DNA of 64,000 nt from Tetradesmus obliquus (Eukaryota > Chlorophyta > Chlorophyceae > Sphaeropleales > Scenedesmaceae), in assembly GCA_030272155.1 (NCBI GenBank), contig CP126198.1, forward strand, positions 3,224,001 to 3,288,000. The letters are read 5' to 3'. The notes below the pieces were generated by a model. It was not told the DNA's origin and did no database searches. It worked only from the letters and a program-made list of their open reading frames with translations. Below, piece after piece: positions 24,371 to 62,835 of this stretch. How positions within the stretch are numbered: position 1 is the stretch's first letter; each line of letters starts with the position of its first letter. A program made the position numbers and the translations under genes.

Positions 24371-25317
24371 AGACGCTCGCTGAGCCTTCCAGTTCTGTAC
24401 AGGCAACAGCAGCAGGTGCAGCAGCAGCAGCAGCAGCAGCAGCGCCGGTTGCAGCGCCTGCCCAGCCATGGGTGTGGGAAGACAGCAACGATGCAGTGCG
24501 CGCGTATGCTGTGTTCTTCCTGTGGCTGGCACTGGGCAGCTGGCCTGCACTGCAGGAAGTGGGGCTCGTAGGTGCGCTGCTAAGTTGGGTTTGCTGTGTT
24601 TGCTGGGATGGTCAACATGCGTTCCCTTTGTACGGTTGGTGTTTGTAGTCTCTTGCTACTAGTGTGTTGGTAGTGAAGCCACACCAACACCAGCTCAGAG
24701 CGTGGATGGTTTCAGCGTTGAAGGGATGCAACGGCGCCAGCAGAGCATTCAGCTAGGATGTGCTGGCAGCAGCATCTAGCACTGGTGCTTGCAGCCCCAT
24801 GCTCCTGCCAGCTGAGAGCAATTGTTAGCAGCAGCGATTGCCTGCTGAGACTTTGGCAAGCTTGTTGGCAAGTTGTTGGGGGAGTAGTTGCGCCAGGGTT
24901 CGCCGATGCAACGGCAGCTGCACTGCACTGCCTGCAATGGTAGGCCTGCACACATAGCCAGCCATGTGTGCACCACACAAGCCTGCACTTTTAAAACTCT
25001 ACTATTCACAGCAGCTGTTGTGTACCTCTACTATCTACAGCACCTGCTGTCCTGCCTGATGCCTTGAGTGGCACTTTGTGCTTTCTTTCCTGCTGCGTGT
25101 TGTGATGCAGACCTGCCGAATCTCCTGTGGCTGTTATGCCTGACGTCTTGAACTGTGTTTTTGTGCTTTCTTGCCTGCTGCGTGTTGTGCTGCAGACCTG
25201 CCGTACTTCCTGGGGCTTGGCGTGCTGACTGTGTACATCGGGGCACACAGGGGCCTCACCAGCAAGTCCAAGCAGCAGCTCAGCGTCAAGGAGGTGAGGC
25301 CTGCTGCAGCAGCAGCT

Positions 25318-25356
<39 letters not shown>

Positions 25357-27168
25357 GCGGCATGCACTCTGACTGGAGCTGCTCGCTTGCGAAATGATTG
25401 CCAGCATGGCGGGTTTCTGAAGCTGCACATACTACACCAGCTACACAATGCTGTCGCAGCTGTTCGACAGTACCAATCTGCATGCTCAGTATGTTCCACA
25501 ACACACTAGTCAGGAAGGTCACAACCCACCCGCCATGTTCGATCGTGTGCTGCTGTTGCAGGGCCTGCTTGCGCCCGTGCTGACCCTATGACGTATGACA
25601 TTCTAGATGGACAGCAACCAACCTGCCATGTTCACCAGTGTGGTGCTGTTGCAGGGCCTGTTTGCGCCCGTGCTGGCCCTGTGACATATGACAATCTGGA
25701 TGGACAGCAATCACTCGCAATGTGGAATCCTGTGCTGCTGTTGAAGGGCCTGCTTGCGCCCGTGCTGACCCTATGACGTACGCCAGTCCGGACGGACAGC
25801 AATCAATGGCAATGTTGAGTCATGTGCTGCTCTTGCAGGGCCTGCTTGCGCCCGTGCCGACCCTATGACGTAGGACATTCTGGATTGACAGCAACCAACC
25901 TGCCATGTTCCCCCGTGTGCTGCTCTTGCAGGGCCTGCTTGCGCCCGTGCTGGCCTCCTGCTCCCTGTTTGGGCTGTACCTGCTGGTGAAGTACATTCCG
26001 GACTTCAGCCTGCAGACGTTCCTGGATGCATACTTTTGGTTGCTGGGCAGCGTAGCTATATACGGAGCAGGTGAGCCGAATTCTTGATGCATGAGTTTGT
26101 ACATGCAGTGCGTAGTAGCGGTGCTGAAGTGTCAGCTGTTGCGCAATGCGTATGATCCTGCTGCCTGGTGTCTGTTTGCCGCTTAGCTATGAGTACATCA
26201 GCTGCCTTGTGCACACAGCTGGAGCTAGGCTGCCTCAACAGCCTGCATTCCGGCACAGCACTGGGGACATCCAACACAATGCCAGTATCAGCGACGTTGC
26301 TGCTCACACTGCACCACATCGCCATTGCGTGTGCCGCTATCCTCTGCTGTATCGCAGCGCGGCCGCTGCTGCGCCAGCTGGCCCCCGGCACCCTGGGCCA
26401 GAAAAGCATCGAGTGGCAACCACCAGAGGGCTTGCTGTTAGATGAGGAAGGCAACAATGTGCCACTGGTGCAGGTGGCACCTTCAGATGTGGCTGCTGCT
26501 GCATTTGCTGTGGGGCTGGCGTCTGCTGAGCTGCTGGGTCACCACACCAGCTTCACGCTGAACAACATGGTGAGATGAGATGTTTGAACTTGTGTGAAGT
26601 ATGAATTTGAAGTGTAATCAACGCTGTTGATGTGTTGGTTGCTCTGCCGAGCTGCTGGGTCACCAACACCAGCTTCACACTGAACAACATGGTGAGATGT
26701 TTGCACTGAAGGACATTGTGTGATGTTCACACTGCACAGCGATGTGTAGTTCTGTCAGGCATAATGGGTTGATTGACTGCTCTGCTGAGCTGCTGGGTCA
26801 CCACACCAGCTTCACATCGAACAACATCGTGAGACCTGAGATGTGAGGTGTGAGATGAGTGCACTGAGGAGGCAGCACCGGCTCTGGCACCAGCACTGCT
26901 GGTGTCAGTTCCTGTTGCAGAGATCAGTGACATGGCCTCTGTTGCTGCTGCTGCTGCTGCTGTTGCTGTGTCGATGCAGGTCGAATGCCTGGTGGCCACT
27001 GAGATCCTGGTGCAGGTGACATCATTTTTGTCATGCTTTGAACAGCACATAACAACAGGCCCTATGTTGCTGTTGCTGCTGCTGCTGCTGCTGCAGGTTG
27101 CGTGCCTTGTGGCCACTGAGATCCTGGCACTGGTGTTGTCATGCCCTAAACAGCATGTCAACATGCCC

Positions 27169-27209
<41 letters not shown>

Positions 27210-27283
27210 AGGTTGCATGCCTGGTGGCTACTGAGATCCTGGCGCTGGTGGGCCTGCGCTCCTTCAGGACTCCACGTAACATA

Positions 27284-27327
<44 letters not shown>

Positions 27328-27775
27328 AGGTTGCATGCCTGGTAGCCACTGAGATCCTGGCACTGGTGGGCCTGCGCTCCTTCAGGACTGCCGCGCTGCT
27401 GCTGGTGGGGCTGCTGGCGTATGATGTGTTCTGGGTGTTTGGCAGCCCTGCAGGTGAGGCACAACGCTGCCTTTGAATGCCTGCACAAGTTGCAGCTGAG
27501 GCAGGGTGTCGTGTGCGAATCCGAGTGTCTGAATACAACAGGGCATTAGAAGGGTTGCAGGCTGCTGTATGGCAGTGCAGCTGCTATGCCAGCGATGTTG
27601 CCCCTGTTGCAGAGCAGCAGGTGACATACAGTGCGGCTGACTGCTTCTGTTGTTGCTGTTGCTGCTGCCTGCAGTTGTGGGTGACAATGTGATGCTCACG
27701 GTTGCCACCTCGGACATGATTGTGGGGCCTACACGCCTGCTGTTCCCAAGGGCGCCAGGCGGCATTGGGGAGGTG

Positions 27776-27830
<55 letters not shown>

Positions 27831-29406
27831 CCACCACCAACACAGCAGCCTGTGCAGCAGCCTTTGGCTTGCACAGGTGGCTGTTGAATCAGGAAGCAGG
27901 TCCTGTCTGCTCAACCACATACGCCGCACATGTAGCTGCTGCTAGCAGTGCTGCTGGCCACAGCAGGTTGATGAACTGTGCTCCTACTGATGGCAGATGC
28001 AGGCAGACCTTCTGCCTCACAGGACCACTGTTGCTGTTTACGATGTGACGTCACATGGGTTGTAATTTGAGCTGTTGCGTGCTTGTGTGCTTGCAGGCAG
28101 CTGACTTCCCCTTCAGCCTGCTGGGCTTGGGAGACATTGCCATCCCTGGTGAGCTGCCTGCAAATGCAGAATGACGTGTGCTGCAGTCTCTCTTTTCAGA
28201 CGGGTAGAAGTGCTCCGCTATGTCTCACTGGCAGTGCTCCAGGGTACTGCCAGCTCCTGGGGCAGCTTGCAACGGTATTTGTTGCCGGACGGTCTTGCAC
28301 ATGCAGCGCCGGCAGTAATGCACCAACTCTTGCTTTGCCGTGTCTAATGAGATTCCAACTGCTTCATGACAATCAGCGGGCTCTGCCTCACTAAGCCGCT
28401 GTGCTGTTGCATGTCATTTCATGCGCTGCTGCTTGCAGGTCTGCTGGCAGGTCTAGCCCTACGCTACGACGCTTCGCGCATCGTCAACATGCAAGCGCGC
28501 GCAACAGCAGCAGCAGCGGCAATCAGCGAGGCCCTCGCAGCGCTGCAGCCAGATGCAAGTGCCAAGGAGATGGGCGATGCAGCAGCCTCGGCAGCCAGCA
28601 CAGCATATGACAAGGTGTGTAGCGGCCGCTGTTCATGTGTGAGGCAGACAGCGTCCTGATAGGCATGAGACGGTCACATGATGCCAACAGAAAGGTGCAT
28701 GCTGGTTATGGATGGCATGCGTTGGCCTAGTGGGTTCTGCTTGCATGAGTGCCTGCTCTCCAGCATGGGTCAGCGGCTAGAATGTGGGGTTAATGTTCAG
28801 CATGTGTTAGCAGCTTGAGTTTTGTGTGTATGCGCACTCAGCCAGCTGTATGGCCAGCCGCTGACTTGATGCAGTGATGAAACAGCAGGTTCGGTAGTGG
28901 CAACAGTGTTGCCTGTTTTGGCCATCTTCAATTTGGTATGCACCAACCACTGCTTGCTTTGCACATGTTTGCAGGTAGCTGACAAGGAGCTGAATCAGCA
29001 GGACAAGTCTCAAGGCATAACAAGGGCCATCAGCAGCGACAGCAGTAGCAGCAGCAGCAGCAGCAGCGACACCAGCAGCAGTAACACCATCAGCAGCAGC
29101 AGTGACACGACCACCAGCAGTAGCAGTAGCAGCAGCATCCAAGAGCAGCAGCGATCGGTGCCGGTGTCGATTGAGGTGCTGCAGCAGCGGACCTACTTCA
29201 CACGAGTAGCATGTGCACACGTGGCAGGCCTGCTGACTGCATTTGCAGCCAACAGCATCACTCACATGGGTCAGCCGGCACTGTTGTACATTGTGCCTGC
29301 CACGCTGCTGACTGTGCTGGTCACAGCAGCCAGCAGGAGTGAGGTGGGCAGGGTGTGGAAGTACACCGATGTTGCTAGCTTTGGTCTGCCTGTGAAGAAG
29401 GAGTAG
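24371..29406 (+). CDS. SPP: Signal peptide peptidase (presenilin-type aspartyl protease)
   Basis: An intramembrane aspartyl protease of the SPP/SPPL family, which cleaves single-span membrane proteins and signal-peptide remnants within the bilayer. Exons in phase: about 24371-24571, 25196-25293, 25932-26070, about 26236-26569, 27330-27453, 27675-27772, 28097-28148, 28439-28614, 28975-29406. First catalytic Asp: LLAYDVFWVFGS (YD motif, fifth exon). Second: LLGLGDIAIPG (GLGD motif, split between exons seven and eight). The conserved QPALLYIVP (PAL motif) is in the last exon, which ends GLPVKKE. Several membrane helices are visible, for example LFGLYLLVKYIPDFSLQ and AIACAAILCCIAARPLL. Low-complexity Ser and Ala insertions follow the GLGD exon. 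The start is not resolved, and the acceptor of the fourth exon is ambiguous among three in-phase AGs. Four introns contain tandem copies of splice junctions, and a decayed copy of the last exon lies 2.7 kb downstream. Confidence 0.9.
25090..25210 (+). repeat. Duplicated 3' splice junction, SPP second exon
   Basis: The block TGCTGCGTGTTGTG(A/C)TGCAG|ACCTGCCG occurs twice, with exon-start positions 25111 and 25196 (85 bp apart). Only the second continues into coding sequence. Confidence 0.85.
25538..25955 (+). repeat. Five-copy array of the SPP third-exon acceptor
   Basis: Copies of (C/G)TTGCAG|GGCCTGCTTGCGCCCG begin their exon parts at 25562, 25655, 25747, 25839 and 25932, a regular 92-93 bp period. 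Copies 1-4 diverge after about 22 exon nt into CCCTATGACGTA-type sequence. Only copy 5 continues as coding exon. Confidence 0.95.
26526..26835 (+). repeat. Three-copy array of the SPP fourth-exon donor
   Basis: The exon tail GAGCTGCTGGGTCACC..AACAACAT(G/C) followed by GTGAGA ends at 26569 (real), 26691 and 26828. The second and third copies carry an indel or substitutions in the exon part. Confidence 0.95.
26940..27360 (+). repeat. Four-copy array of the SPP fifth-exon acceptor with (CTG)n tracts
   Basis: Each unit is a (CTG)n tract, GCAG|, then G(T/C)TG..TGCCT(G/T)GTGGCCACTGAGATCC. Exon parts begin at 26980, 27097, 27212 and 27330 (115-118 bp apart). The fourth copy runs into the exon with the catalytic YD motif. 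Confidence 0.95.
27778..27829 (+). repeat. (CAG)n microsatellite just after an SPP donor
   Basis: About seventeen CAG units begin 5 nt after the GTGAAC donor at 27773. They could be translated as polySer if that donor is skipped. Confidence 0.85.
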
Positions 29407-30793
29407 GCTACCGTTGTTTTGCTGGTTGCTGGAAGCAGCGCAGAGTGCTCGCTCGGCCCGAGGTTGCATAACCATCCAGCAGATGGTGGGATCCCTGTCT
29501 GCCAGTGAAGTTTGGGAGCATCACTCTCTTCTTGATATCTCTTTCCAGCCATAACAACACCAACAGCTCAGCCCAGCAACAGGACTGTGCAGCATTTCAC
29601 AGCTGGTTGTGCAATCAGGTATGCCTGCAGCAGGCCAGCTGGCATGCAAGCAGATATGGGGAGCAGGACAGGCATCTGGGCAGCTATGCCTTGCTGTACC
29701 TGGTCAGTACCTGCCACACTGAGCACCAATCAAGGCAACAAACGCTGCGAGTACTAGTGCGGATTATGATGATGGTGCCTCTCTTGCATTGCAATGTCAA
29801 TTACTTTATGGCGCTCGTTGCTGCCGCACTTTTAGACATGTGAGTACGCATAATGTTGACTTGAGCTACGAGAATTGTGTTGACCTGCCGTTCTGTAGAC
29901 TTGACTGGCCGACTCTGCGGCGACCGTGCTGGCCCAGGCACGTACGTACGTGCACGGTATACCGTGCACGGAACACCGGTGACAACATCGAGGGTTGGCT
30001 AGGGCGTACAAGCCTCGTACTACCGGTGAAAATGGCACTGTTCTTGTTGTTTATCTTTAAAGGGGCGGACCTAATGAAGAGCTATGAGCATGCCGTGACA
30101 GCGTTAGTGCAAAGCTCTGTGACACTTCTTACCTTTCCCTGCGAAGTTGATCAAGTACTCGTCGTAATAAGCCGTGCTTCCTTCTGCAAATACTTCAAAA
30201 AGCTCCACAAAAAGGGTGGTACCGAACTGCGCGTTGCTGTTGGCATGGGCGTGACAACAGTTGAAGCACCAACGTCTCGCGCTCCCGAGTGCACACTGTT
30301 AACAGTGCACTGTTGGGTGTACGTACACCCTGGTAGGGTACACGCACGCGTCATATGGCCGGCGAAGGTCGTAACAGCAGCGACAGGTGTGTTCAAGAGT
30401 CATAAAAATATCAAGGTTGTGCAAGCTTTTGCTGCCCCACATCATTTCGGACGCTGACCCTACCAGAGCCTGCAAGAGGTGAGACCTCTAGCTCGTTGGG
30501 CGCACAACCAGCCATCACAAGTAGTTTGTTACGTGTGTACTACAACCACATGACCGCAGGGCTGCATGCTGAACGTTGTTGTCTCGAACACTCGCCAGTG
30601 CGAAACAGCCGTGCGTGCATACGATACGCAGATCGGCGGTCATGTAGCGTCTTAGAACGTTGAACTTGATCTTGCTCCTCAGCTAGTTGCCAGAACGCGG
30701 CCTAGCAATAGCATGCATCCTGCGGTCTGGGCAAGGTCTGCAGTTGAGTGTGTGCCCATCATGGGAACATGGCATGTTCTTTGACACCCCACT
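29407..30793. other. Gene-poor region with palindromes
   Basis: An open plus frame from an ATG near 30032 to 30457 encodes about 140 residues of non-repetitive sequence (KSYEHAVTALVQSS, SRASFCKYFKKLHKKGG) without a known domain. A 22-bp perfect palindrome lies at 29949-29970, and TGTACGTACA and CACTGTTAACAGTG occur near 30290-30330. CAG repeats are absent, unlike the flanks. It may be an old insertion, but I see no terminal repeats. Confidence 0.3.
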
Positions 30794-31126
30794 TTGCAGC
30801 ATGGGTGCCCGGTTTCTTGTGTAACCGGGGGCGTGTGCATCACCTCGCTTGCAACTGGTAGCAGTAACTGTGTTGTTTCTGCCCATGCATGCAGGTGGTT
30901 CAGGCCTGTCAGCAGCATGTTCAAGGCAGTCAGCAGCATGTTCAATCCTTGCAATTGGGAAGACGAGGACGCGCGCCGTGCCAAGTGTGATACGTGTAAT
31001 GATGTCAGGCCGCTTGCAGTCAAGGACTGCAAAGCATACATAGCACGAGGCTTTCAAGGAGGAATTGTGTGCGGCCGCAATGGTTGCGCTGGCATCATGT
31101 GGCTGCTCAAGGACCCCAGGAATTGA
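30794..31126 (+). CDS. Candidate exon with a Cys4 motif
   Basis: An open frame of 110 codons. The likely exon starts after an acceptor (CATGCATGCAG near 30894) and encodes FNPCNWEDEDARRAKCDTCN, then VKDCKAYIARGF and VCGRNGCAGIMW, ending WLLKDPRN. The spacing C-x2-C, C and C-x4-C could bind zinc. No family is recognised and no upstream exon is identified, so this is a weak call. Confidence 0.35.
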   Translation: MQHGCPVSCVTGGVCITSLATGSSNCVVSAHACRWFRPVSSMFKAVSSMFNPCNWEDEDARRAKCDTCNDVRPLAVKDCKAYIARGFQGGIVCGRNGCAGIMWLLKDPRN

Positions 31127-31429
31127 TGAATGCTAATCGTGTCCCACTCCACTGTGGGACACGTGCAGATGGTCACAGCAGTCAACACGTGAGCATGTGT
31201 GTGGAAGCCCAAGGCTCTCAGGACCTTGTTATTATACTGGTGGTGTCTGGTGTCGGCAGTAGTGCCTCATATGGCGCAGGGAGGCGGTGCCTGCTAAAGC
31301 TATTGTTTTTAGTGTTGCGCGGTTTATAACCTAATATAGACCGGTTCTGTGTGACGGTGGTCCAGGGCACGTGTGGCAGTGCTTGTTCCTGTGGCTCTGT
31401 TACGTTTGTGCCAGCATGGCAGGTCTGGG

Positions 31430-31680
31430 TCAACATCAGCAGCAGTGGGTGCCTGCCAGTGAGTGACATCAGCAGCAGGGGGTATGTGGCAGTGGGTGAC
31501 ATCAGCAGCAGTGGGCACGCGCCAGTGGGTGACATCAGCAGCAGTGGGCATGTGCCAGTGGGTGAAAATCAGCTGTATTGGATGTGTACAGTGGGCGAGC
31601 GTCAGCAGCAGTGGCTATGTTGCGGTGGGCGAACGTCAGCAGCAGTGGCTATGTGGCGGTGGGTGAACGTCAGCAGTGGT
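31430..31680 (+). repeat. Minisatellite of about 30 bp units
   Basis: At least seven imperfect copies of a unit like GTGGGTGACATCAGCAGCAG with variable spacers. The array keeps a frame open (repeats of SSGHVPVGDI type), which explains the 244-codon ORF here. Confidence 0.85.
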
Positions 31681-31965: not shown

Positions 31966-32140
31966 GTGTTTGCAGCCAACAGCATCACCCATGTGGGTCA
32001 GCAGGTGCTGCTGTACATTGTGCCTGCAACGCTGCTGACTGTGCTGGCCACAGCAGCCAGCAGGAGTGAGGTGGGCAGGGTGTAACGCTTCACTGATGTT
32101 GCTAGCTGTGGTCTGCCTGTGAAGAAGGAGCAGCTGGCGC
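31966..32140 (+). pseudogene. Decayed copy of the last SPP exon
   Basis: Homology to 29246-29402 begins at TTTGCAGCCAACAGCATCAC and runs to GTGAAGAAGGAG. The conserved QPALLYIVP has become QQVLLYIVP, and a TAA replaces the Trp codon after EVGRV, so the copy is truncated. Identity drops sharply at both edges. Loss of the PAL motif residues shows it cannot serve as a protease exon. Confidence 0.9.
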
Positions 32141-33655
32141 TGTGGTGCTGGTGCTGTGAACAGCAATGGCTCATAGCGTGCAGAGTGCAGAGGCACTCAG
32201 GGAGGGGGGAGAGTGGCCGCTAATGGCGTGCCTTTGTCATCGTGTTGGCTGAGACCAGCAGAAGGCAGTTTATCGATGGATGCTATAGTACATGGGCTGC
32301 AGGGCAGCAGTACAGTAACACGGCCTAGGGCTCACTGTGCAGTATGTGCAGTGATGGATGCTGTTAGGTATTTGAGAAGGTGTCACATAGTGACGGAAGC
32401 AGCACAGTTGTGGTCACAGAGTGACACTCGTAGTAAGAGTTGGTGTTGTGACTAGGGAAGAAGCAAGCGACAGCAGGTTGTCATGTGCAGCAGGGCTTGT
32501 ACAGCTGAATAGTTCAGGGAGTGATTAACGATGGGGCTACACATAAGCACCCGACTCCAGTTACAGTCCACTGTGACACGTGGCGACGCCTTGACGCAGC
32601 ATAATCACGATGTAACATACATTCCTGCTACAAGTGTACCATGGCATTGGGGGATGAGCCTTGATGGTGCCACAGCAGTGCAGCGTGCAGCTGCCGTGTA
32701 CTACGTAGGGCGGCGGCTTGTGCGCCCTGTAATGCGGCAACAGCCCATCTCTAGCCTGTAATGGCTCGGCAAGCTGGCTTGTATCCATTGTTGTATTGCC
32801 GTGCTGCAGCACCAGCTGGTGATCATCATCGTCATCATCCATACCATTTGAGCCATAGCAACGTCGCCATCGCCAGCACCAGCTTGTGATGTGTGTTTCA
32901 AACAAAGTTTGTTCTTGCTATCATGCAAGCTGCACAGTCACGTGCTGCTTGACCTCAGCAGAAGGTCTGCATCCAGCCAATCAATTCGGCATAGCGATGG
33001 TGGTTATGTAACCATTCGGCATGTGCCTATGATAACCAAGTAATTGGAGCCGGCAGCAGTTTTCCTCTGTCAGCTGTACTCGTCAGCTGCCTCAATAAGC
33101 ACGCAGGTTCGGACGAAAAACGAAATTCCTGGTACGGAATCATTGTGCAGCAATTGCCCTCACGTAGCGTCACGAGCAGCCTTGTTCCATGCTCTGTACA
33201 CCACAAGGCCTTGGCACGAGCATTTCTCATCTTGTTGGCTGAGCCCCTTACAGCGCAGGGGTCGTTGCAAGCAGGCACAGCAGCCAAATTTGGCTGTTTA
33301 AACTGCTGGGTGATGTGCTGCCACTGTTGTGTTGGGTGGCACGCCGCAAGTTATAACTAATTATCACCTATCATGACCAACCAGTGTTGGTGACACCTTG
33401 GTATGTAACAGCAAATGAGACGTGTGTAATTCAGTGCCAGATTGTTTTCACACTTTCACACTTGTAAGGCTGCAACTTCCTATGAACTTGTGTACTGCTA
33501 CGAGTATACTCTCGGCTCTTCCTGCGAACTTGCAGCAAAAGTGTGAGATGCGGTGGCCGGCGCAGTTTGAGAGACACCACACACAGCTCGCGGACTCAAC
33601 CTGATTTCCGCGATCCAACAACTTGGTCTATACGCATGTTGCCGACTGCTGATGC
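32141..33655. other. No gene seen (1.5 kb)
   Basis: Only short frames on both strands, and no splice-consistent exons or repeats of note. Confidence 0.4.
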
Positions 33656-37342: not shown

Positions 37343-38706
37343 ACGCTGCCATCGGGTTGAGAGAGTCGGGTCACCGAAGCAAAGTTACTTCGGAGCTCGG
37401 GTGACGGGCTGGCGATGAGGCGGTACTGCAATCGTTGTCAGCCAGACAACAGCATAGAGTGATGCAGCCAGACTCTGATAGTGAGCCAGTGTAACCAGCA
37501 CAACAGGTGCTACCACGCGTGGTAGGACTCACCTGCCCTTTCGTACACGTGTACTGGTTGTGGCAGACACCAACAGATGAAAACGGCAAAAATTTATCAC
37601 TAACAGCAACAGAATGCAGATTCTCGTGCAGGTTGTTGCGCGTTAACCCTACGCACTAACCCCACGCTAACCCCAAGCACAAGCACAGTACTGGTGACGG
37701 GATCAGTGGATCCTGAAACAGAAACACAGCTGAGAGGTGAGACGTTGTGCTTTCTGAAAGCATGACAACCTGTCGCAAGCTGTTTATTGGCCTTCTTTGG
37801 ACATAAAGAGAGGCATACAGGGCTCGCTGCTCAACGGTCGGCGAACACATGTGCACATGGCTTTGTGGTCAACGGGTGCCAAACGCCGTGTGTACATACG
37901 AAGCACACATGTGTACACATCGGCACACGTATGAAGCACGCTTATGAAGCACATAGGCAGCTTTCTTATATGTATACAGTGTAATGATCGATCAGCATTT
38001 TGCTGTCCATGGTCCTTCCATCATGATCATGATGCACATCATGATGTACAATGATCCTTATAAGGTTAATCAATACGCACCAGCACAGCAGCAGCCTGCA
38101 CTCTAGCTGGCACTGGCACTGACTTCCTGCCCCTATTCTAAACTAGAGGCGAGGACGAGGCGCAGCGAAGCATCTATCCTGAGGTGTGCGTCTGGTGTAG
38201 CAGCCTGTGCATGTGCTGCAGCGCCGTGCGTCTGATCCTTCGCCACCAAACCGTAACGCATATGTTGCCCACACGAGTATCAACAAACCGTTCGTACAGT
38301 CACCTCGCTTGCCACTGGAGCATCAGCAGCATTAAGAGAGTTTCAACGTGCATGCGGGCATACATTGCAAGCACAATGCAACATAATGCTGCCTAGGCTG
38401 CAGGCCTGCATGCAGCTTCCAAACGTGTGAAGGCTCAAACAGCAGCGAAGCGCTTCACCATGAAGCAGCTGCATGCCCACGAGCACTGCGCATGACAGCA
38501 CACTGCACTACAGCACACCACACTCCTGGCGTGCGCAGCATTGAACTGCGTAACAGCCACGCGCAAAACCAACCCTGCAGCTACACCGCACAGTGGCAAG
38601 AGGCAAGACCACAGTGCGGCGCTGGGCCGTTGGCTATGCAGCTACGGCTGAGCTGACCAAAAAACAACGATGACGATGTTGATGCAAGCTTGAGCAAACC
38701 AAGCAA
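37343..38706. other. No gene seen (1.36 kb)
   Basis: Contains clustered CACATGTGTACACA-like near-palindromes (37845-37980) and ATGATCATGATG-type repeats near 38020-38050. No supported exon. Confidence 0.35.
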
Positions 38707-39364
38707 AGCATCACACAGCGCCCGCACGCCGTGCTTTATACGGCTGCAGCTTCCCGCTCGGCTCAATCGTCAGCTCCCGCCCCTCAGGCCCCACAATCAC
38801 AGGCGCGCCCCGCGGCCCCGATACCGCCTGGCCATTCTGGCCCAGCACCACAGACAACCAACACCACAGTGCGGCGCAGGGCCGTTGAATTTGTCGTTAT
38901 GGCTGGGCGACAACAACCACAACGATGACGATGCAACATCAAGCTTGGGCTCACAAGCAAAGCATCACACAGCGCCCGCACGCCGCGCCTTGTACGGCCG
39001 CAGCTTGCCGGTCGGCTCAATCGTCAGCTCCCGCCCATCTGGCCCCACAATCACAGGCTCGCCCCGCAGCCCCGATATAGCCTGGCCATTCTGGCCCAGC
39101 ACCACAGACATGCAAGACCACAGTGCGGCGCAGGGCCGTTGACTGTGTAGCTACGGCTGAGCTGACGTCAACACAATGATGACGATGAAACATCAAGCTT
39201 GGGCTCACAAGCAAAGCATCACACAGCGCCCGCGCGCCGTGCCTTATACGGCCGCAGCTTGCCGGTCGGCTCAATCGTCAGCTCCCGCCCATCAGGCCCC
39301 ACAATCACAGGCTCGCCCCGCGGCCCCGATACAGCCTGGCCATTCTGACCAAGCACTACAGACA
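38707..39364 (-). repeat. Three copies of the 3' end of the Toc64-like gene
   Basis: The block encoding the last 40-odd codons, stop and following sequence occurs with the same point at 39215, 38961 and 38707, an exact 254 bp period. The two downstream copies retain most of the reading frame and the stop, but they lie after the first stop codon and would be 3' UTR. Confidence 0.9.
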
Positions 39365-47101: not shown

Positions 47102-50100
47102 CTACAGGCGGAAGTGCTGGTCATACACCTGCACAAACTGGTACGCGGCCTGGATCATGTGCCCGTTGTAGAAGCGGCCGTGCAGCATTTTGTGTGCTGC
47201 TGCTGCGCCCTCCACTGCTGCCATCTTGAGGTACACAAAGCCCTGCAGGGCAGCACAAAACACATGTGCATAGCAGCAGCCAGGGCAGCGGGACAGCAGG
47301 GGAAACACACACAGCTGTTGGTTTGTGCGCAGGCTACCGTCAATGTTGCGACTTTGCTAGCGTGCATGTTCGCACGACAGTGTTACGGCGCAGCAGCTTG
47401 CCGCACGCTGTGCATACGCTGGTGCGTGAGTGCTGCACTGCAGCTGCCCTGCTGCTGACACAGGTACTCGGCTGAAGTCACACAGCACCACCTCATACCC
47501 CATCCCACAGAGCAACCGTGTTCATGTTGTCATGCGCCACACATGCCTCTCTATCTCACCAGCTCCCTCTTCTCCCCTTTGCTAGCCTGATAGCAACACG
47601 ATGCATACACAAACCCACACGCCCCGGGCGCAGCTCACCTTGCTGCTGCGGTCCACAAACACGTGCAGCACCTGCCCCAGCTTGCCGCACTCCTCCCGCA
47701 CATCATCCTCCACCTCCTCCGCCCAGCCCGCCTCCGCCTGCTGCGCAGCATCAAACATGTTCTTCAGCAGCAGGCACTGCGTGGGAATCGGACTCGGGGG
47801 GCCCAGCAGACCCTGATCAAGGCTCAGATCCATACCAGGGACTGCACCAGGCATGCCAGGCACTGCACCGGGCATGCCAGGCAGCGGCACAGCAGCAGTA
47901 AGGCCCGGGAGTGCGGCAGCAGCAGCAGCAGCCATGCTGCTGAGGCCTGCAGCGCTAGGGGCTAGCATGCCTGGCATCATCATGCCTGGTACTGCACCCA
48001 TTGGTGCTGCCAGCAGCGGGTTTGCTGCTGCTGCTGCTGCCAGGCCGCCGGAGGCAGGGCCCATGCCTGCGCTGTTGGCGAGGCGGTTCATCAGCGCGGC
48101 GCGCGTCTGCGGGCGCAGCGACAGCAGCAGCAGAGCAAGGTGGTGAATAAAAGCGGGGCACTCTGGTTGAAGGTTGCAGGGTGCCAGCACCCACCGCGCA
48201 CATGCAGCAAAGCCGCCGGGATACATCCCTTTGGAAGCTGCAGGTCACGTTATACCCAGCTATTATATATGTGCAGGTGCTGCGTTGTCCTCTTACAGTT
48301 CCCATTCCCACCTGCGTGTTGAGCCTGTAATCCCCATCGTCCAGGTCACCCACGCCAGCATACCCATCTATTACAGAAGCAAAACAGCACTTTTCAGGTC
48401 CCAGGCTGTGCTCCACCAGAGCGCAACCCACCTGCGTGTTGAGCCTGAAATCCCCGTCATCCAGGTCACCCACGCCACCATCACCGCCACCGCCACGGTC
48501 ACCGCCGTGACTGCGCTCGCCCTTGAGTGGTGCCACCACCACGCTGAGCTCATGCTCCAGCAGCACCTTGCCGTTCCAGTGCGCCTGCAGCAGCAGCAGT
48601 GAGGCAAGAACAGCAGCAGTGAGGCAAGAGCAGCAGCACAGCAGTCAGGCGCCACCACCACGCTGAGCTCGTGCTCCAGCAGCACCTTGCCATTCCAGTG
48701 CGCCTGAGGGCAGCAGCAGCAGTGAGGCAACAGCAGCAGCACAGCAGTCAGGCGCCACCACCACGCTGAGCTCGTGCTCCAGCAGCACCTTGCCGTTCCA
48801 GTGCGCCTGAGGGCAGCAGCAGCAGCAGCAGCAGTAGCAGCAGTGAGGAAACAGCAACAGCAACAAGGCAACAGCAGCATGCCAAGCAGCTACATGCTCC
48901 AGCAGCACCTTGCCGTTCCACTGCGCCTGCGGCAGCAGCAGCAGAAGAAGCAGAAGCAGCAGCAGTGAGGCAACAGCAGCGCAGCTGCGCAAGTGGGGAC
49001 ATATCGTGTAGTGCGCGCACATGCTAGGCAGCAGGCCGATACCCTCATGCAAGAACATCAGGCGCGAATTTGACCAGCCACCAGCGCAGCAGGGGTGGCC
49101 GACAACAACATCACCATAATCATAATCATCGTCATCATAACCGTCAGCAGCTGCAGCCCACCTGCGCGTTCTGGCCGTCCGCCTTGTTCTGGAACACCAC
49201 GTACGCGATGTTGATGGGCTGCCCCGCGCCGTCGCGCACCACGTTCACGCCCTCAAGCGGCCCGAAAGGCTCGAAGATCTGCGTGATCTCTGCCTCTGCT
49301 AGCCCCTGCTTGAAGCCCGTGACCTGCAGCCGCAGCGGGCCAGCGGGAGCTGCAAGGAGAGGGCAGGCGGCAGACAAAGCAAACACGCAACATGTCAGCA
49401 ACAGACACCTTGCTTGAAGCCCGTGACCTGCAGCCGCAGCGGGCCCGCGGGCGCTGCAGCAACAGGGCAGGCAGAGAAAGAGGAGGGGGAAAAGGTCAGT
49501 CTATGTGTCAGCAAAGAGGTAGTGGCATGCTCAAAGATCTGCGCGATCTCTGCCTCTGCTAGCCCCTGATTGAAGCCCGTAATCTGCAGCCGCAGCGGGC
49601 CGGCAGGCGCTGCAGCAAGAGGGCAGGCGACAGCAAACAGAAGGACAGCGTGTCAGCAACAGAGGCTTGCTAAAAACCGTTGACCTGCAGCCACAGAAGG
49701 CCCACGGGCTTCGCCTGTGCCGCAAGGCTAGCACTGCCCCGCTGCACCCACCCTAACAGGTGCACTCGGCAGCACCCGCACCCACACAAACTCGCGTGGT
49801 GCTGCCCCCAGCCCGCTACCTGCACTACTGCTAGCGCTGCCTCTGCTACAACCAGTTACTGGTGCGCAGCTGTAAGCACGGCCACAGATACATATGCAGG
49901 TGCGTAACCATGCAGCTACTGGATACAATCAGTCATTCTACATTCATCTATATACATGAACACCCACACAAACACACCTGGCGGCGCCCCCATTGCCCCC
50001 AGCCCCAGCCCCAGCGCCGCCAGCTCTGCGTCCGCTGCGTTGCTGTTCTTGGCCGCCTGCTGCGCCTCCCAGGCCAGGTTCTTCTCAGCCTCCGCGGGCT

Positions 50101-50182: not shown

Positions 50183-51981
50183 AGAAGAACACGTGTCAGT
50201 CGAGAAGTGCGCGCACAAAAGCCGAGTATTCAGACATAATCGGCCCAGCATGAGCTGGCCTGCAGCAGCAGCAGCAGCAGCAGCGGCAGGAGCAGCAGCA
50301 GCAGAAGTGTCAGGCGAATAGCTACAACACAAAGCTGCCGCAAAGCGGCGCATGCGCGCCTACATGTTACGTGTGCAACAAGCGTGCTCTGCTGGCTTCC
50401 ACTGCCACTGCTGCGTGGTGGTGAGCAGAGCAGAGGTTTTACAGACACGTGCTGCTATCTACTGCATGTGAACATGCATCAGCACCTAGCATCATCTTCC
50501 CTGCACTGTTTACTGATGCAGCACGTGTAGCTGCAGCAAGGCATATGTACACACAGCACCGCTGCAGAACAGCGCGCGCGCCACTGCTGCTCCTTCAGGC
50601 ATCAGTTGCTGCTGCAGCCTCAAGCCACTGCTGACCTGTAAGTGCCAGCGCCACGAACACCTCCTCCTGCTTTGAGAACTCCACATAGGCCAGGCCCTTG
50701 GAGCGCTTGGTGTGCCGGTCTGTGATGAGGCGAATGTCCGTCACCTGCAGGACACATGTGCAACAGCCGCACGTAGCAGACAACATAGTATCAGATCACT
50801 GCTGCCATGGTGTGATCTACCACTGTTGTCTGGCACCCTACGCATACCTTCATGCGCATCTCAAACATACACACGCACAGGCAAACACTCCCTGTGTCAA
50901 GCACAAAATGAATCATACGCCGACCCCGCATGGCATGAGCGGGCAACAGCAGCAGCAGCAGCACCCATGCCACCTTGATGATGAAGAGCTAAGGGATGAC
51001 GCAACCCAGACATCGAACAGCAGCAGCAGCAGCAGCAGCAGCAGCCGCACCTCTCCCGCCTTGAAGAACTAACAGACGTCTCAAATTACACAACCCATCA
51101 CTGGCACAGCATGAGCTGACATGAGCTGACATGAGCTGGCAGCGAACAACAGCAGCAGCAGCCGCACCTCTCCCGCCTTGGAGAAGAACTCGAAGATGTC
51201 GCGCTCGTCCGCCTTGATGTTCAGGTTGAACGCAAACACGGTGCGCGTGGCGCGCTCCAGCTCCTTCAGCTCGCGCTCCTTCTCACGCGCCAGCCGCACC
51301 TCCGGCGGCGTCATGTCGCGCCTGCAGCAGATATTATTTAAAAAAATGCAGCGGAGAGGGTGCAGCGCAACAGGGTTTGCATGAAAGGAGTCAGTTGCTG
51401 AGCAGACTTGGAGCTCTTAAAGAGTGGTAAGCGCTCCTTCTCATGCGCCAGCCGCACCTCTGGCGGCGTCATGTCGCGCATGCAGCACATGTGACAGTGT
51501 GACAGTGTTGTAGAGTGACAGCAGGACAGCTGGACTGCTGTTATTTTTGGCGGGAGTAGTTTTGAACACAGGCAAGTGGTGACGCAGCGCACACCAGCTG
51601 TATGCAACTTGACGTAACCTCTCAGCTGCTGCTGTGGCTCTGCAACCCTGCACCACAGCCGCGGCTGCTTGTCTGGTGTGGCACATGCAACATGTGGCGC
51701 ACTCACCTCCTGGGTGGTGGTGCTCGCCGCATGTCCCGGCCGCGGTCCCTGCCATTCCTGTCCCCGCGCATGTCCCTCTCCCTGCGCTCCCTGCAGGACA
51801 GCAGCAGCCGCAGCAGGGCAGAGCAGCAGCGCTGTCAGAGGCGGCAGAAGTAGGTACAGATGATATGCATGTGCTGCAACGCCTCAACAATGTTGAGCCT
51901 GGGTGCATAAGCAAGTTCGACAGACACAACAAGGGGCGTGTTGCTGCTGGATTTGGTGCTCCATGGCACCATACAGACATT

Positions 51982-53817: not shown

Positions 53818-54529
53818 GGATATCTGGGGCATGAGCTTGACTCACACTGTGTAGCTCAGAAAACTTTATGTTTTGTTTGCGGTTTATTTGTCGTAAGAAC
53901 ACAGGGTTGTGGGGACACGCCCGGTATGTGCAGGCGCGAACGCTGCTCCCGCCAAAACGCTGACAGTGCTGCAAGAACGCAATTCAAGCTTGTGACAAGC
54001 AAACACGAAACTTCAGCGCGAAAGCCACAGCTGCACGCTCCTAATGGGTCAAAAGAGGCCCTACTGTCAGCAACAAGCTTCCACTCGGTTTGCTCTGCAC
54101 ATGGTGAGCTGGTAGCTGCGTGCACAGCTGCATAATGCTTCCAGCAACCTTGTGTGCTTTATGCCAAAGCAGCAGGGCTGCCTGCGCGCGCCAGGAGTTT
54201 TTGCAATGCTGATGTGGCAGCTGTCAGCACCGGCAGCTAGGCGCGCCTGCTCAGCTTCCAAGCAAGTTCCAACATAAGAGTCGAACATCATATGAATCAC
54301 CACCAGTCATGCACACTCCACAACATCTACAGCCAGATTTGCCTGATTGTCTATTGAGCAATGCTGGATTACATTACTGCATCTATAATACTGTTGAGCT
54401 TTGTACCTTAGATGCAGACACAGGTGACACCAACAGGAGCCAGCCTAACCAGCAGCAGCCTCAGCAGACACCTTTAGTCGCTGCTCAAGACAGCGCAGCA
54501 GTGTGTGTTCCTTCAGAGTGTGTAGTGTT

Positions 54530-55770
54530 GCTGCCTGTGGAGGTACACTGAGGGCATTCCTTGCATCATTTGGTTGTAAGGGGCAACACCTTCAGGCACT
54601 GAAGCAGGCAATGATGCAGCAGCACAGCACAGCTGTGCAGTGTGTGGCTTGCAGGACCATGTTTGTGTGGTGTTGCTGCATGTGGAGGTATGCTGCTGGG
54701 CAGTCCTTGCATCACCATTGGGTGGTCGTGAGGGGCACTCCCCACAGGTACTGAAGCATGCAATAACGTTGCGTCAGCAGAGTGTCTTGTGCGGGCCTGG
54801 TGTGCGTGTGTTGTGTTGTTGCCTGTGGAGGTATGCTGCTGGGCGGCCCTTGCATCACCATTGGGTGGTCGTGAGGAGGAGCTCCCCACAGGTACTGAAG
54901 CAGGCAACAGCACAGCAGCTGAGCAACGGCAGTGTGCAGCAAAGTGGTCTGCATTGGCTGGTGTGTGGTGTTGCTGCCTGTGCCGGTGCGCTGAGGGCTT
55001 TCCTTGCACCGCATGGGTGTCAAGGCCATAACCTCTGCAGGCACTGAAGCAGGCAGCAGCTGGCAGACAGATAAAGGCAGTGTCCTCCTGAAACTCTGTG
55101 AGCATGTTCATGTTGTTGCCGTCTGTGGAGGTATGCTGCTGGCCATCCCTTCCGTCACTTGGTGGCAAAATTACTCCCCAGCAGGTACTCAAGAAGACAG
55201 TGATGGCAGCTCCGCAGCAGCGCAGCAACGGCTTGGTGTGAGCATGTTCATGTTGTTGCTGTCTGTGGAGGTATGCTGCTGGCCATCCCTTCCGTCACTT
55301 GGTGGTAAGGTTACTCCCCAGCAGGTACTGAAACAGGCAGCAAGCAGCAGCCGGTTGCAGCAGTGCATCTTGCATCCAGGTGTATGCTGTTGCTGCTTGT
55401 GCCGGTGCGCTGTGGGCCTTTCCTTACATCACTTGGTGTCAAGGCCATAACCTCCACAGGCACTGAAGCAGGCAGCAAGCCAGCAGCAGAGTGCAGCATT
55501 TCGTCTTGCATCGTGGTGTTTTGTGTTGCTGCCTGTGCCGGTGTGCTGTGGGCTTTCCTTGCACCGCGTTGGTGTCAAGGCCATAACCTCTGCAGGCACT
55601 GAAGCAGGCAGCAAGCAAGCAGCTGATAGCAGCAATGCAGGGCCTTGCGCCATGGTGTTTTGTGTTGCTGCCTGTGCCGGTGCTCTGTGGGCTTTCCTTG
55701 CGCCGCATTGGTGTCAAGGACATAACCTCTGCAGGCACTGAAGCAGGCAAGCAAGCAGCTGAGTGCAGCA
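54530..55770 (+). repeat. Array of about ten acceptor-like units
   Basis: Units of roughly 105-150 bp contain GTGTTGCTGCCTGTG, a (CTTGCATCA/CTTGCACCG) core, (C/T)(T)CTGCAG or CCCACAG, then (GC/GT)ACTGAAGCAGGCA. Exon-like starts recur near 54596, 54756, 54891, 55039, 55325, 55459, 55595 and 55734. The last is followed by the longest open reading, ALKQASKQLSAAAQQFAFSV. This has the same architecture as the junction arrays in the SPP and RBM39 genes, so it probably marks an intron of an unrecognised plus-strand gene. Confidence 0.75.
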
Positions 55771-55899
55771 GCGCAGCAGTTTGCATTCTCTGTACACATG
55801 TGTGTGGCGCGGCTGCTGCAGTAGCACACCACCAGCAATTCCTTGTGTCGTTGGTGACATGCCTCAATAACACAGCCAGGCAGCAGCAGCAGCAGCAGT

Positions 55900-58311: not shown

Positions 58312-59573
58312 ATGGATCCATTTGCGCTGTTATCCGCTGGTGTTCATTACGATAAGTCTAAAATACCAAAAACGGCGATACAGAAGACGCATGCGTACTC
58401 GGTGGCACTGCCCCTGCCTGGTGAGTGGCAGCAGCACACAGCAGCAGCAGCAGGAACAGCAGCCACTGCTGCTAACTGAGTTTCCCATGCTCGTGGTGGT
58501 TGCAACAGTAAGCAATGAGCTACATGCAAGTATACCATACGTTTCTGGTGATGCTACCGGAACAGACGAGCTGTAGGCTGTTGCAGCTGCACATGCTCCG
58601 CACATGCTGACAAAATTTGTGCATGCCCTGCCTCATTCTGCACTGCCCTGTCTTTGTAGACCTGCCGCGACCAGCAGGCAGCCAGCCGAGCAAACAGAAA
58701 AGAAAAAAGGGTGCTGCAGGTGGGAAGACGCATGTTGACTTCATCAGCAGACAGCTGCCGTTGGGCGTACGCGCCTGCACTCTGCTCATACACGAGGCAG
58801 GCTGTTGCCTGATATGACCATGTAAACTGCAGCAGATGGCGCAAGCCTAGTTTGGTGTTAGTGTTGACTGTTGCGTGTGCAATTGCCAGCCGGAACCACG
58901 CCGGTTAGTGAATCATAAAGGCTGCCGCATCCATGTTTGTGTCCGCGCTGCTTGCTCCCATGCAGGCACTCAGCAACAGCAGCAGGAGCAGCAGGCAGAT
59001 GATGGGGGTATCAGCTTGTTCTCTGCTGCAGCAGCAGCACAGCAGCAGCAGCAGGTGGCAGCAGAGCCGCCGCTGCCGCAGGTGCACAGCAACGACCCTC
59101 ATGAGGAGGCCAATGTGATCCGCAAGGCGCTGCGCATTAAGGTGGGAGTGATACATGCAAAAGCAATGTTATACAGGGATTATGCTTTGTTGAATTCTAT
59201 GTTCAGAGTGCACAGCGCTGCGCATGAAGGTTGGAGGCATCAACATATTTGGGTTGTTGCCAGGAGCAACGCATCCTTGCTCGCTGCGCTTGTGTAATAG
59301 TGTTGTAGCAGCTGCTGCGTGGCTTTGCCGCATGTTTGGGCGGGCTTGTTGGTTGCAGTTGGCACACCAGCTTCTGGCAGACGCAGCATCTCTGCCTGTA
59401 TGTATAAACAGAGCGCCAAACGCAGCATCATGCATCCTTGCTTGTCTGCTTCACAGGCTGTACTTTGATCACGCGTGTTGAACGCGTCACTCGCTGCTGC
59501 TGCAGGTGAAGGGGCATGACGTGCCCCCACCCCTCAAGTACTGGTCGGACATAGCAAAGCACCCCAAGGAGGG

Positions 59574-59605
<32 letters not shown>

Positions 59606-62600
59606 ACAGCGACGACGAGCAGCAGGAGCAGCAGCAGCAGCCGTCCAAGAAGCGCAAGCAGCAAGCAGATGCAGCACCTTCGAAGAAGCACAAGCACCAC
59701 AAGCAGCAGCACGTCGTAGGCCTCAGCCGGCACTTGATGCGCCACTTGGAAGAAAACAACTGGTCCACTCCCACACCCATCCAGCGCCAAGCCATTCCGG
59801 CCCTACTATCTGGCAGGGAGCTTCTCGCAGTTGCTCCAACAGGCAGCGGCAAGACTCTGGCCTTTGTACTGCCAATGCTGGCGCTGCTAGCAGAGCAGAA
59901 GCTGCAAGGCGGAGAGGCATGGCCTGATGCTCCGAAGGCGCTGCTGCTGAGCCCTACACATGAGCTCGCTGCGCAGACAGTAAGAGTGCTGAAGCAGCTG
60001 CTGCCGGGCAGCGGGCTGCGCTGCTGCCTGCTGAGCAGCGCTCCGGCTGGCGTGGTGCAGTTTGGGAAGGTTGATGTGCTGGTGGCGAACCCGCTGCGGC
60101 TGAAGATACTGGTGGAGGAGGGCAAGGTGGACCTGAGCCACGTGAGTGGTGCAGTTGTTACACTTGTTGGTGTGCTTGCCTGCACTTTGTTTCTGCTTCC
60201 AGGCTGTGTGTTTTGGATGCCCAGCAACACTGCAAGTGGTGTGGAGCTGGCAAGCCAAACCTGCATAGATGAGTGCACTTGTTCTGGAGAAAAGGATGTC
60301 AAGTGCTGGTGAGTTGGGTGAGCTTGCAGTTCAGCAAGGTTGATGTGCTGGTGGCGAACCCGCTGCGGCTGAAGGTACTGTGGAGGAAGGGAAGGTGGAC
60401 CTCAGCCATGTGAGTGCAGGATTACTGATGTTAGTGTGCTTTTGAGAGCTTGAAGCACATGTGATCTGCGGTGTGCTATTGGTGGTGGAAGGGAAGGTGG
60501 ACCTCAGCCATGTGAGTGCAGGGTTGCTGGTGTGATTGCTACAGCTGTTTTCGTTGGGTATGACTGAACTTCTTGCTGCTCTGCTGCATGCTGTGAACCA
60601 CTCGCAAACTGCAAACCCCAGGTGACCTACTTGGTGCTGCATGAGGCGGATAAGCTGCTGGCATTACAGAGCTTGTGCCCTGTCTCACCTGCCGCATGGC
60701 TGCTTGTCGCCTTACATATCTCCCACTTCAGGTGACCAACCTGGTGCTGGACGCGTCCGACAAGCTGCTAGCCATGGGCTGCGGACAACCTGCTGGCCAT
60801 GAGTTTTACAGAACATGCCAACCTGCATTTTCCTGCTTTTTAGTAACCTTCGGCGGCCTCCTGCACAACTGTTCACAGGTGACCTACCTGGTGCTGGATG
60901 AGGCGGACAAGCTGCTGGCCATGGGCTTTACAGAACATGCCAACCTGCATCTTTTTCTTGTTGTGTATGTTCCACTCCTCAGGTGCCCTGCGCAGTGCTA
61001 CACAAGGCTGTTCCCCTTTGTTACACCGTCAAGTACGAACCCAACTCATCGCTCCTTCACAACTGTTCACAGGTGACCTACCTGGTGCTTGATGAGGCGG
61101 ACAAGCTGCTGGCCATGGGCTTCACGGAGCAGGTGGACGCGCTGCTGGCGGCAGCAAGCAGCGGCACCATCACGCGAGCCTTCTTCAGCGCCACGCTGCC
61201 GGAGAAGGTGCGGCGCATATTTTGCATGATTGCGCAATAGTAATAGAGTGAGAGAGCAGTTTGAGTGTTTGAGTGTGCATTGCAGAGGCAGATGGTGTCT
61301 CCTGTTTTGCCATGTTGATGTTTGTTGCCGGAATGTCAGCTATGCCGGCAGTGAATCTCCAACAACTCAACTTCCCGAGTCAGTCGCCCTCCCCGCCTTC
61401 AGCGCGATTGTGATATACCTGCTTGGCCGCTAGCTTGCGCCACGCTTTAAGCAGGACCCAACTTTGGACTCCACTGCTGCCGCTACCCACGCACATTGCA
61501 CTGATGTTTTCTCCACATAACGCTGTCATGTAACACTGGCATGCAACAGGTTGAGGAGCTGGCGCGCAGCGTGCTGCGTGACCCACTGCACATCGTGATC
61601 GGCGAGCGCAACACCACGCAGCACCTGGTCAAGCAGCGGCTGCTGTTTGTGGGGCGCGAGGCGGGCAAGCTGCTGGCGCTGCGGCAGCTGCTGAAAGGAG
61701 GAGGCGTCAAGCCGCCCGTGCTGGTGAGTGGTGCTGTAAGATGTGCGGATATACATATATTGTGATTGAAACACACATCACTCTCACACCCTCTGCATTC
61801 ACACACCAGTTGCTGTCTGAGCTGGCATGTCTGAAGGCTGCATGACAACCCTGCACGTGCTGTACAAGCAGTGACTGCACCCCTTACTTGATTACTGCTT
61901 CACCTGCAGGTATTTGTGTCCAAGAAGTCCCGCGCGCAGCAGCTGCACCGTGAACTTCTCTACGACGGCATGCACGTGGACTCCATCAGCGGAGACCAGC
62001 CCAACACCGCGCGCGCAGCAGCCGTCGAGAACTTCCGCGCAGGCAAGACCTGGGTGCTCATCGCGACAGACCTCATCGGCCGTGGCATGGACTTTGCTGC
62101 TGTCAACACGGTGATCAACTACGACTTCCCCAGCAGCACCACAGACTACATCCACAGAGTGGGCCGCACAGGTGCGTGAAACAACCAACAAGAATTCCAA
62201 GGATGCCAAGCAGGGCCCACGGAGCAGCAACGTTACGAAGCTGTGGGGTTGACTGGCTGTAGCACAGGTGAAGTCGCCATGGCACACTCAAAGAAGTGTT
62301 GTGAAGGGTGTATTCTGAGCTGCAAGGCACATGCATGACGTACTGCTCTGTCACTGGCGCCACCACCTCTGCTGTTGCTGCTGCTGCTGCCGCCAGGCCG
62401 CGCGGGTCATGCCGGCGAGGCCATCACGTTTTTCACTGAGGGCGATGCCGGCAAGCTGCGCAGCGTAGCACACTTGGTGAAGGAGGCGGGCAGTGAGGTG
62501 CCTGACTGGATGCTGCACATGGCAAAGCAGCCGCGCAACAGGCACAGGGACAGAGACAGGAAGGTGGGTGCGCCGGGGTTTGGTGGCCTGGAAGTTTGTG

Positions 62601-62740
62601 TTTCTCTGAGCAGCTGCTGGTGCAGGTCTGGGTTGCTGAACCGAACGATTCCGGGTGTAGTGCGCTGGCTTGCGCGCAGAAGTGTCTTGCTGTTACCGCT
62701 GCGGGGCAGGCTGCTGACAAGTTGCGTGTTGCAAACATAG
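58312..62740 (+). CDS. ROK1: DEAD-box RNA helicase, ROK1/DDX52 type
   Basis: ATP-dependent RNA helicase of the nucleolar ROK1/DDX52 group, needed for early 18S rRNA processing in yeast. Exons in phase: 58312-58420, 58660-58719, 58966-59141, 59506-60141, 61073-61207, 61550-61723, 61910-62171, 62397-62563 or on to a stop at 62740. The N-terminus MDPFALLSAGVHYDKSK resembles the ROK1/DDX52 start. Motifs: Q (STPTPIQRQAIPALLSGREL), I (APTGSGKT), Ia (SPTHELAAQ, His replacing the usual Arg), II (VLDEADKLLAMGF), III (FSATLP), IV region (VFVSKKSRAQQLHRELLYDG), V (ATDLIGRGMDF), VI (YIHRVGRTGRAG). The C-terminal ITFFTEGDAGKLRSVAHLVK and EVPDWMLHMAKQPRNRHRDR match the group. PolyGln and basic stretches lie before the Q motif. 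The end is uncertain because the last exon has its own copy 266 bp downstream. Introns 4 and 8 hold junction copies. Confidence 0.9.
60330..61100 (+). repeat. Donor and acceptor junction copies in one ROK1 intron
   Basis: Donor copies: exon tail ..GGTGGACCT(G/C)AGCCA(C/T)|GTGAGT ends at 60141 (real), 60409 and 60511. Acceptor copies: CAG|GTGACC(T/A)AC(C/T)TGGTGCTG starts at 60622, 60732, 60879 and 61073 (real). The copies encode decayed DEAD boxes: LHEADKLLAL, LDASDKLLAMG and LDEADKLLAMGFTEHAN. Donor copies cluster at the left, acceptor copies at the right. Confidence 0.95.
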
Positions 62741-62835
62741 AAGTGAAGCAGGCGGGCAGTGAGGTGCCTGACTGGATGCTGCACAAGGCCAAGCAGCCGC
62801 GCAACAGGCACAGGGATAGGGACAGGACGGTGGGC
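62695..62835 (+). repeat. Copy of ROK1 last coding exon
   Basis: A block homologous to about 62440-62563 returns 266 bp downstream, encoding VKQAGSEVPDWMLHKAKQPR and the basic RHRDRDR segment, with GTGGGC again after it. It could be a further junction copy or an alternative terminal exon. Confidence 0.9.

Follow-up and report, generated by a model that had tools for sequence, protein, structure and literature searches.

The window analysed here, a 64,000-nt stretch of the OEZ86-tagged Tetradesmus obliquus assembly (C8:3224001-3288000; genome of 104.66 Mb in 17 contigs), contains four genes, SPP, Toc64-like, RBM39-like and ROK1-like, whose exon ends are found again, once or several times, in the neighbouring non-coding DNA. 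The repeated unit, about 84-290 bp long, comprises the end of an exon or coding sequence (CDS) together with adjoining non-coding DNA and is often repeated several times; additional copies share the orientation of the original and occupy the intron next to it or the downstream flank. Our preferred reading, to which we would give close to an even chance, is local duplication anchored at coding edges and probably fed by exchange between haplotypes, with the copies decaying later and the introns lengthening. The copies resemble remnants of alternative forms of these genes rather than a system for controlling splicing. The window encodes the annotated SPP protein P0001 (OEZ86_014409, T. obliquus) exactly (566 of 566 residues). 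The other three names follow Pfam domains or source names: we take the genes to be a Toc64 relative (amidase and TPR domains), an RBM39 relative (splicing factor CC1-like) and a ROK1 relative (DEAD helicase).

Exon models were derived from annotated T. obliquus proteins with a purpose-written spliced aligner, for the window and for an additional 290 kb drawn from seven other contigs. This gave 17 usable protein models with 126 introns on the window's contig and six others; P0121 and P0132 are two models of one locus. Nine further models (P0123, P0124, P0129, P0131, P0133, P0135, P0145, P0146, and P0149) were not used, as they came from other species or were poor, partial or duplicate, while P0126 was retained although its match fails after residue 573. 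A second set consisted of 39 further genes from a self-trained gene finder. Its first settings over-split genes, and its final version reached a junction sensitivity of 0.80 and a specificity of 0.76 on genes partly included in its training set; therefore, the predicted genes carry less weight than the protein models.

For each junction, a probe joining 25 nt of intron to at most 110 nt of exon was compared with the intron next to it. In the protein models we detected 59 copies on 35 of 250 junction sides (18 donor and 17 acceptor sides). Two of these copies, scored '--' for the splice dinucleotide, are low-complexity hits (P0144 and one P0151 hit, 39066-41018), and dropping them leaves 57. 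The predicted genes yielded 30 copies on 18 of 292 sides. The four window genes account for 27 junction copies (SPP 10, RBM39-like 8, ROK1-like 5, Toc64-like 4); with two Toc64-like copies at the CDS end and one ROK1-like repeat (62743-62861) in a doubtful model, this agrees with the figure of about 30 given by the first-pass annotation. Copies were present in 19 of 82 protein-modelled introns outside the window vs. 11 of 44 inside, thus the window is not special. They were seen on six of the seven other sampled chromosomes, C2 giving a low-complexity hit only. The edge copies of the window are as follows.

25046-25217, + strand: SPP acceptor-edge duplication with an 84-bp unit; copy junction at about 25109/25110, real acceptor at 25195/25196.
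25522-25955, + strand: SPP acceptor-edge array of 4 copies, unit about 93 bp, upstream of the real acceptor at 25931/25932.
26522-26844, + strand: SPP donor-edge array of 2 copies, downstream of the real donor at 26569/26570.
26927-27416, + strand: SPP acceptor-edge array of 3 copies, upstream of the real acceptor at 27329/27330; P0001 uses the exon-adjacent one.
38603-39367, - strand: Toc64-like array of 254 bp spanning the CDS end and stop codon; copies downstream of the stop, no splice junction.
39945-40307, - strand: Toc64-like exon tail (40235-40307) with one copy (39945-40017); real donor at 40238/40237, spacer not alignable.
40729-41613, - strand: Toc64-like donor-edge array of 3 copies, 253-bp unit, copying the tail of exon 41506-41678.
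48307-48481, - strand: RBM39-like donor-edge copy (48307-48361) of the exon tail at 48427-48481; intron spacer not aligned.
48529-48980, - strand: RBM39-like acceptor-edge array of 3 copies, upstream (transcript sense) of exon 48432-48584.
49269-49709, - strand: RBM39-like acceptor-edge array of 2 copies, for exon 49162-49349.
51273-51490, - strand: RBM39-like acceptor-edge copy (51431-51490), for exon 51168-51321; AT replaces AG, spacer not alignable.
60056-60533, + strand: ROK1-like donor-edge array of 2 copies, downstream of the real donor at 60141/60142.
60619-61131, + strand: ROK1-like acceptor-edge array of 3 copies, upstream of the real acceptor at 61072/61073.
62477-62861, + strand: ROK1-like repeat pair (62477-62599 and 62743-62861) at the donor of exon 62397-62577; model doubtful, the P0126 match ending at residue 573.

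SPP shows, in addition, a fragment of its last exon at 29242-29439 that recurs at 31969-32164, 2.7 kb downstream, with 86% identity.

The dimensions were close to those proposed from the first inspection (units of 85-290 bp with 20-100 nt of exon). Offsets between units ranged from 84 to 290 bp with a median of 124 (32 mixed clusters of at least 45 bits, protein-modelled genes), and the exon part from 18 to 108 nt with a median of 56 (57 copies). The offsets crowd between 84 and 163 bp (27 of the 32 clusters, from the window and L001-L029). None was shorter than 84 bp, although the search began at 25 bp; this lower limit could be set by interference between close splice sites. The splice dinucleotides are mostly preserved, as had been claimed, with GT in 25 of 27 donor copies and AG in 29 of 32 acceptor copies.

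To examine polarity, we searched exon-end probes against the introns of the same gene (score at least 56, best hit per intron). Among 27 probe hits, 13 exon heads lay upstream and 12 exon tails downstream in the adjoining intron, with one head and one tail on the other side; none of the 27 was inverted and none fell in a non-adjacent intron of the same gene, so that the reported polarity and common orientation both stand. Hence 25 of the 27 are direct, adjacent repeats of the neighbouring segment in the same orientation, as in local tandem duplication generally, and the placement of heads upstream and tails downstream argues against truncated duplicates of whole exons. Very probably this polarity is forced on any tandem duplication in which the reading frame is preserved: protein can be read only from the copy that runs on into the exon body, and the others become non-coding.

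Splice sites are not the only edges concerned. Among protein-based genes, 3 of 16 had copies beyond the stop codon at the CDS end, as had 4 of 37 among the predicted ones, a rate that resembles that of the splice sides, and upstream copies were found at CDS starts in 0 of 16 and 2 of 37 genes, respectively. As nothing is spliced at a stop codon, the target is the edge between coding and non-coding DNA, and the common factor is the edge of conserved coding DNA. The original description as a copying of exon-intron junctions thus holds in that junctions are copied, but is too narrow, given that stop-codon edges show copies of the same kind and polarity. These data bear also on a process in which transcription or splicing would direct duplication to splice junctions, as through breaks at R-loops or paused polymerase. 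Such targeting would suit the nearly equal numbers of donor and acceptor sides and the narrow range of unit sizes. Yet, stop-codon edges are affected at a similar rate without splicing, the exon-side ends have no fixed position (as judged by eye), and the codon-phase signal described below would be left unexplained; we regard it as unlikely.

To determine whether the edges are hit more often than by chance, we counted repeat clusters as events. The protein-based genes contained 40 clusters, of which 33 joined an exon part to intron, 3 were purely intronic and 4 purely exonic; the latter four were dropped, and random placement was made to spare the CDS. Results showed that 33 of 36 clusters include an exon part, compared with 21.3 expected (P 1.3e-5). 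With clusters of at least 90% identity the excess was weak (7 of 8 vs. 4.6 expected, P 0.075). Masking of exons, which aimed to cancel the advantage of the slowly evolving exon, left 20 clusters, 18 of them anchored vs. 7.5 expected (P 8e-7); the script recognised 15 of these, another 3 were added manually as members of the same arrays, and without these three the result was 15 of 17 vs. 6.5 (P 1.3e-5). Outside the window 9 of 11 masked clusters were anchored (P 0.004 against a fixed 0.38). In the predicted genes 7 of 13 clusters were flagged as anchored, and one of the other six lies in an apparent coding repeat. Clusters made of non-coding DNA only were sparse: the 96.7 kb classed as intergenic contained 8 and the 49.0 kb of intron 2, vs. 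32 anchored ones.

The copies differ from their exons in a manner typical of coding DNA. In the protein models, differences at codon positions 1, 2, and 3 numbered 63 in 1150, 58 in 1152, and 204 in 1142 (5.5%, 5.0%, and 17.9%), and in the predicted genes 31 in 486, 19 in 494, and 69 in 480. For a neutral copy beside a constrained exon, a ratio of third-position to other differences below about two is expected; by gene, the ratio of the third to the mean of first and second positions was mostly 3.5 to 11.6, P0144 and P0150 (one copy each) giving 1.43 and 1.67. Codons could be compared in 46 ungapped copies of the 59: here 149 differences were synonymous, 64 codons were changed, and the exon frame contained no stop. 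The remaining 13, left out of the codon test, carry an exon indel that is frameshifting in every one. The earlier statement that the exon piece diverges into stops or other frames thus describes only a minority. With P0144 alone dropped as low complexity, transversions accounted for 14 of 64 third-position changes at two-fold sites vs. 62 of 126 at four-fold sites (p 2.9e-4). Between exon and copy, changes at third positions were symmetric (77 from G/C to A/T, 76 the reverse), and copies compared with each other also differed mainly at third positions (26, 21, and 59). Base composition or CpG mutability was rejected as the source of this bias, since the bias persists within each base class and the contrast of two-fold and four-fold sites does not depend on it.

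At the same time, only 5 of the 59 copies are open to the exon and in frame, and most copies seem unreadable. From a divergence that is coding-like in copies that mostly cannot be read, we infer, with less certainty than for the polarity, that copy and exon began to diverge as alleles. The simplest account would then have two phases, a first as alleles and a second of neutral decay. Proteins of a second strain, presumably UTEX 393, differed by 59 in 4995 residues over eight proteins (P0149, with 355 of 406 identical and a poor alignment, was left out); hence, a silent divergence of several percent appears plausible.

Duplication anchored at coding edges could then proceed as follows. Exchange between diverged haplotypes would start where homology is good, in exons, and misjoining in the poorly matching intron would leave two exon ends, one from each haplotype, side by side. 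Arrays would be built afterwards, as the conserved exon and its copy recombine unequally; the copies would then decay neutrally and the introns lengthen. Such duplications would be tolerated because the intact edge is the one used. We consider it possible, if rather doubtful, that introns in this sense keep fossils of other alleles: exchange between highly diverged haplotypes, begun in exons and misjoined in non-coding DNA, would across the genome drive intron growth from exon ends, and the copies would record past silent variation.

In line with growth, introns with copies were longer (median 550, n = 31) than those without (median 258, n = 95); part of this contrast is built in, because copies add length and need room. 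The protein-modelled genes have 48,970 bases of intron, of which anchored clusters make up 8,997. Together with the occurrence of copies on most of the sampled chromosomes, the greater length of these introns supports the earlier suggestion of a mutational habit that makes introns grow.

Several results weigh against the preferred reading. The third-position ratios of SPP (1.58) and P0122 (1.77) fit plain neutral decay. The silent divergence needed for the allelic step, roughly 10%, is an estimate, and the strains were compared by protein only. A point-density test gave no excess at junctions (donors 11 of 126, acceptors 15 of 126, deep-intron points 17%). We judged this test to be confounded, because junction-anchored arrays fill introns; event counting seems sounder for the same reason, as a single array of this type covers much of an intron. 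Most anchored cases with alignable intron are indeed arrays, and single duplications with alignable intron are few, about 3 anchored and 1-2 intron-only by reading. Much of the excess may thus reflect amplification on a conserved exon and not the birth of the copies.

Spacers gave a mixed picture. In all six donor cases examined, the alignment spans the exon end and 2-7 nt beyond the donor, and in several two-copy donor cases the spacer looks unrelated or not alignable. End-to-end alignments were uninformative for 2 of 6 donor and 1 of 4 acceptor cases, in which the copies were not lined up. One case adds to the points on the contrary side: its exon parts are 95% identical and its intron spacer cannot be aligned, a difference exceeding an allelic divergence of 10%. 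Cases with non-alignable spacers are compatible either with the joining in of sequence from another haplotype or with an older event, and the 95% exon identity in this one argues against simple age.

Some of these observations are shared by an alternative, in which ordinary local tandem duplication is uniform over the genome and anchoring at edges is a by-product of survival and visibility: exon-only events are purged, the exon half stays recognisable, and copies seeded by a conserved exon keep amplifying. The little excess among single duplications, the flat point-density test and the weak event test at high identity all favour it. On the other hand, the excess persists when exons are masked, clusters of non-coding DNA only are sparse, and the coding-like divergence of the copies is left unexplained. 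We consider uniform duplication improbable on balance, though far from negligible.

An origin in the assembly, with pieces of two haplotypes joined end to end by the assembler, would account for differences between copy and exon that resemble those of two alleles. It appears highly improbable, as the Toc64-like copies are encoded in proteins of two assemblies (OEZ85 and OEZ86 tags) whose contigs differ in length, and multi-unit arrays with strict polarity are atypical of such joins.

The first-pass annotation had also suggested a layer of splicing control, that is, rows of competing sites under selection. The retention of GT or AG in 54 of 57 copies would fit such a role, as would the annotated Toc64-like proteins that occur both with and without the copies. 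However, roughly 49 retained sites are expected by an arithmetic estimate at 7.6% difference per aligned intron site, so that retention is near what the level of decay allows and selection on GT/AG is not needed. Distances were multiples of three for 17 of 59 copies, as for a random frame; few copies are open and in frame, and their inner ends, inspected by eye, have no regular second splice site. In addition, the sites next to the exon are those used in the annotated SPP and RBM39-like proteins, and copies follow stop codons too. The suggestion thus found no support, and we regard a control layer as quite unlikely. The copies as hidden mini-exons were not supported either, except in Toc64-like. 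By annotation, two copies serve as additional exons, at 41249-41383 and from 40745, in P0131 (OEZ86_014410) and P0133 (OEZ85_014143); both are missing from P0130, which shares its locus tag with P0133. In this gene alone, copies may have turned into extra exons.

The nearest known kind of event is intron gain by tandem duplication, as treated in reports on potato RdRp (PMC4974935) and Drosophila (PMC2891723) and in a review (PMC3443670); in the potato case, an intron-exon structure is duplicated (PMC4974935). The likeness lies in a local duplication of exon sequence with splice signals, the protein being kept by splicing. In T. obliquus, in contrast, existing introns lengthen and no new intron is required, and the units span coding edges, stop codons included, in many genes, in arrays and with coding-like divergence. 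In terms of the AGGT model, we found no new intron between copies, as the copies lie inside one existing intron (SPP, RBM39-like, P0130), the longer Toc64-like isoforms P0131 and P0133 being the exception; nor is the duplicated segment exonic, as the units span exon and adjoining non-coding DNA. Among titles and abstract openings searched, with most subscription journals outside the coverage, no paper describing these edge copies was found.

Repair of staggered or patched double-strand breaks yields local direct duplications anywhere, without mobile elements, but alone it would neither favour coding edges nor produce a codon-phase divergence from the outset. The Toc64-like copies that are extra exons in annotated proteins resemble tandem exon duplication and mutually exclusive exons. 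Elsewhere, one exon edge is copied, heads upstream and tails downstream, and not a whole exon with both splice sites, with Toc64-like as a possible exception by annotation. Introner elements are dispersed families that add intron sequence. Sequence is added to introns here as well, yet each of the two spacer introns tested occurred once in the genome if the local repeat is set aside, unlike an element found at many genomic places, and a dispersed element was rejected for these two. Intron matches elsewhere in the genome fall mostly in the CTG-rich part.

According to PMC5966456, T. obliquus has a mean intron of 462 bp and 15.7% coding DNA, while its compact relative Raphidocelis has 44.0% coding. 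In the sampled genes, the edge of the adjacent exon can be identified as a source of intron growth, which bears on differences in intron length between lineages. If the allelic reading is true, each copy samples an older allele, and genomes alone could then suffice to test how haplotype divergence contributes to structural mutation. Copies with intact AG or GT also mislead gene finders; our own predictor was misled by those of SPP.

Other repeats were noted in the window and the sampled blocks. At 8353-9373 of the window, direct repeats of about 150 bp lie within an open frame, RCC1-like by eye; this is a coding repeat and not an edge copy. Positions 9836-12024 hold blocks of about 240 bp at a spacing of 0.4-1.3 kb, with identity up to 98%, and 54518-55776 an array of 136-145 bp units, intergenic by the models used. 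L012 and L013 (block C3, about 12.1-17.4 kb) form a run of one- or two-exon predicted genes, unlike most sampled blocks. Runs of CAG/CTG triplets are abundant throughout the window and the sampled blocks, in coding as well as in non-coding DNA, and often form the tract before acceptors.

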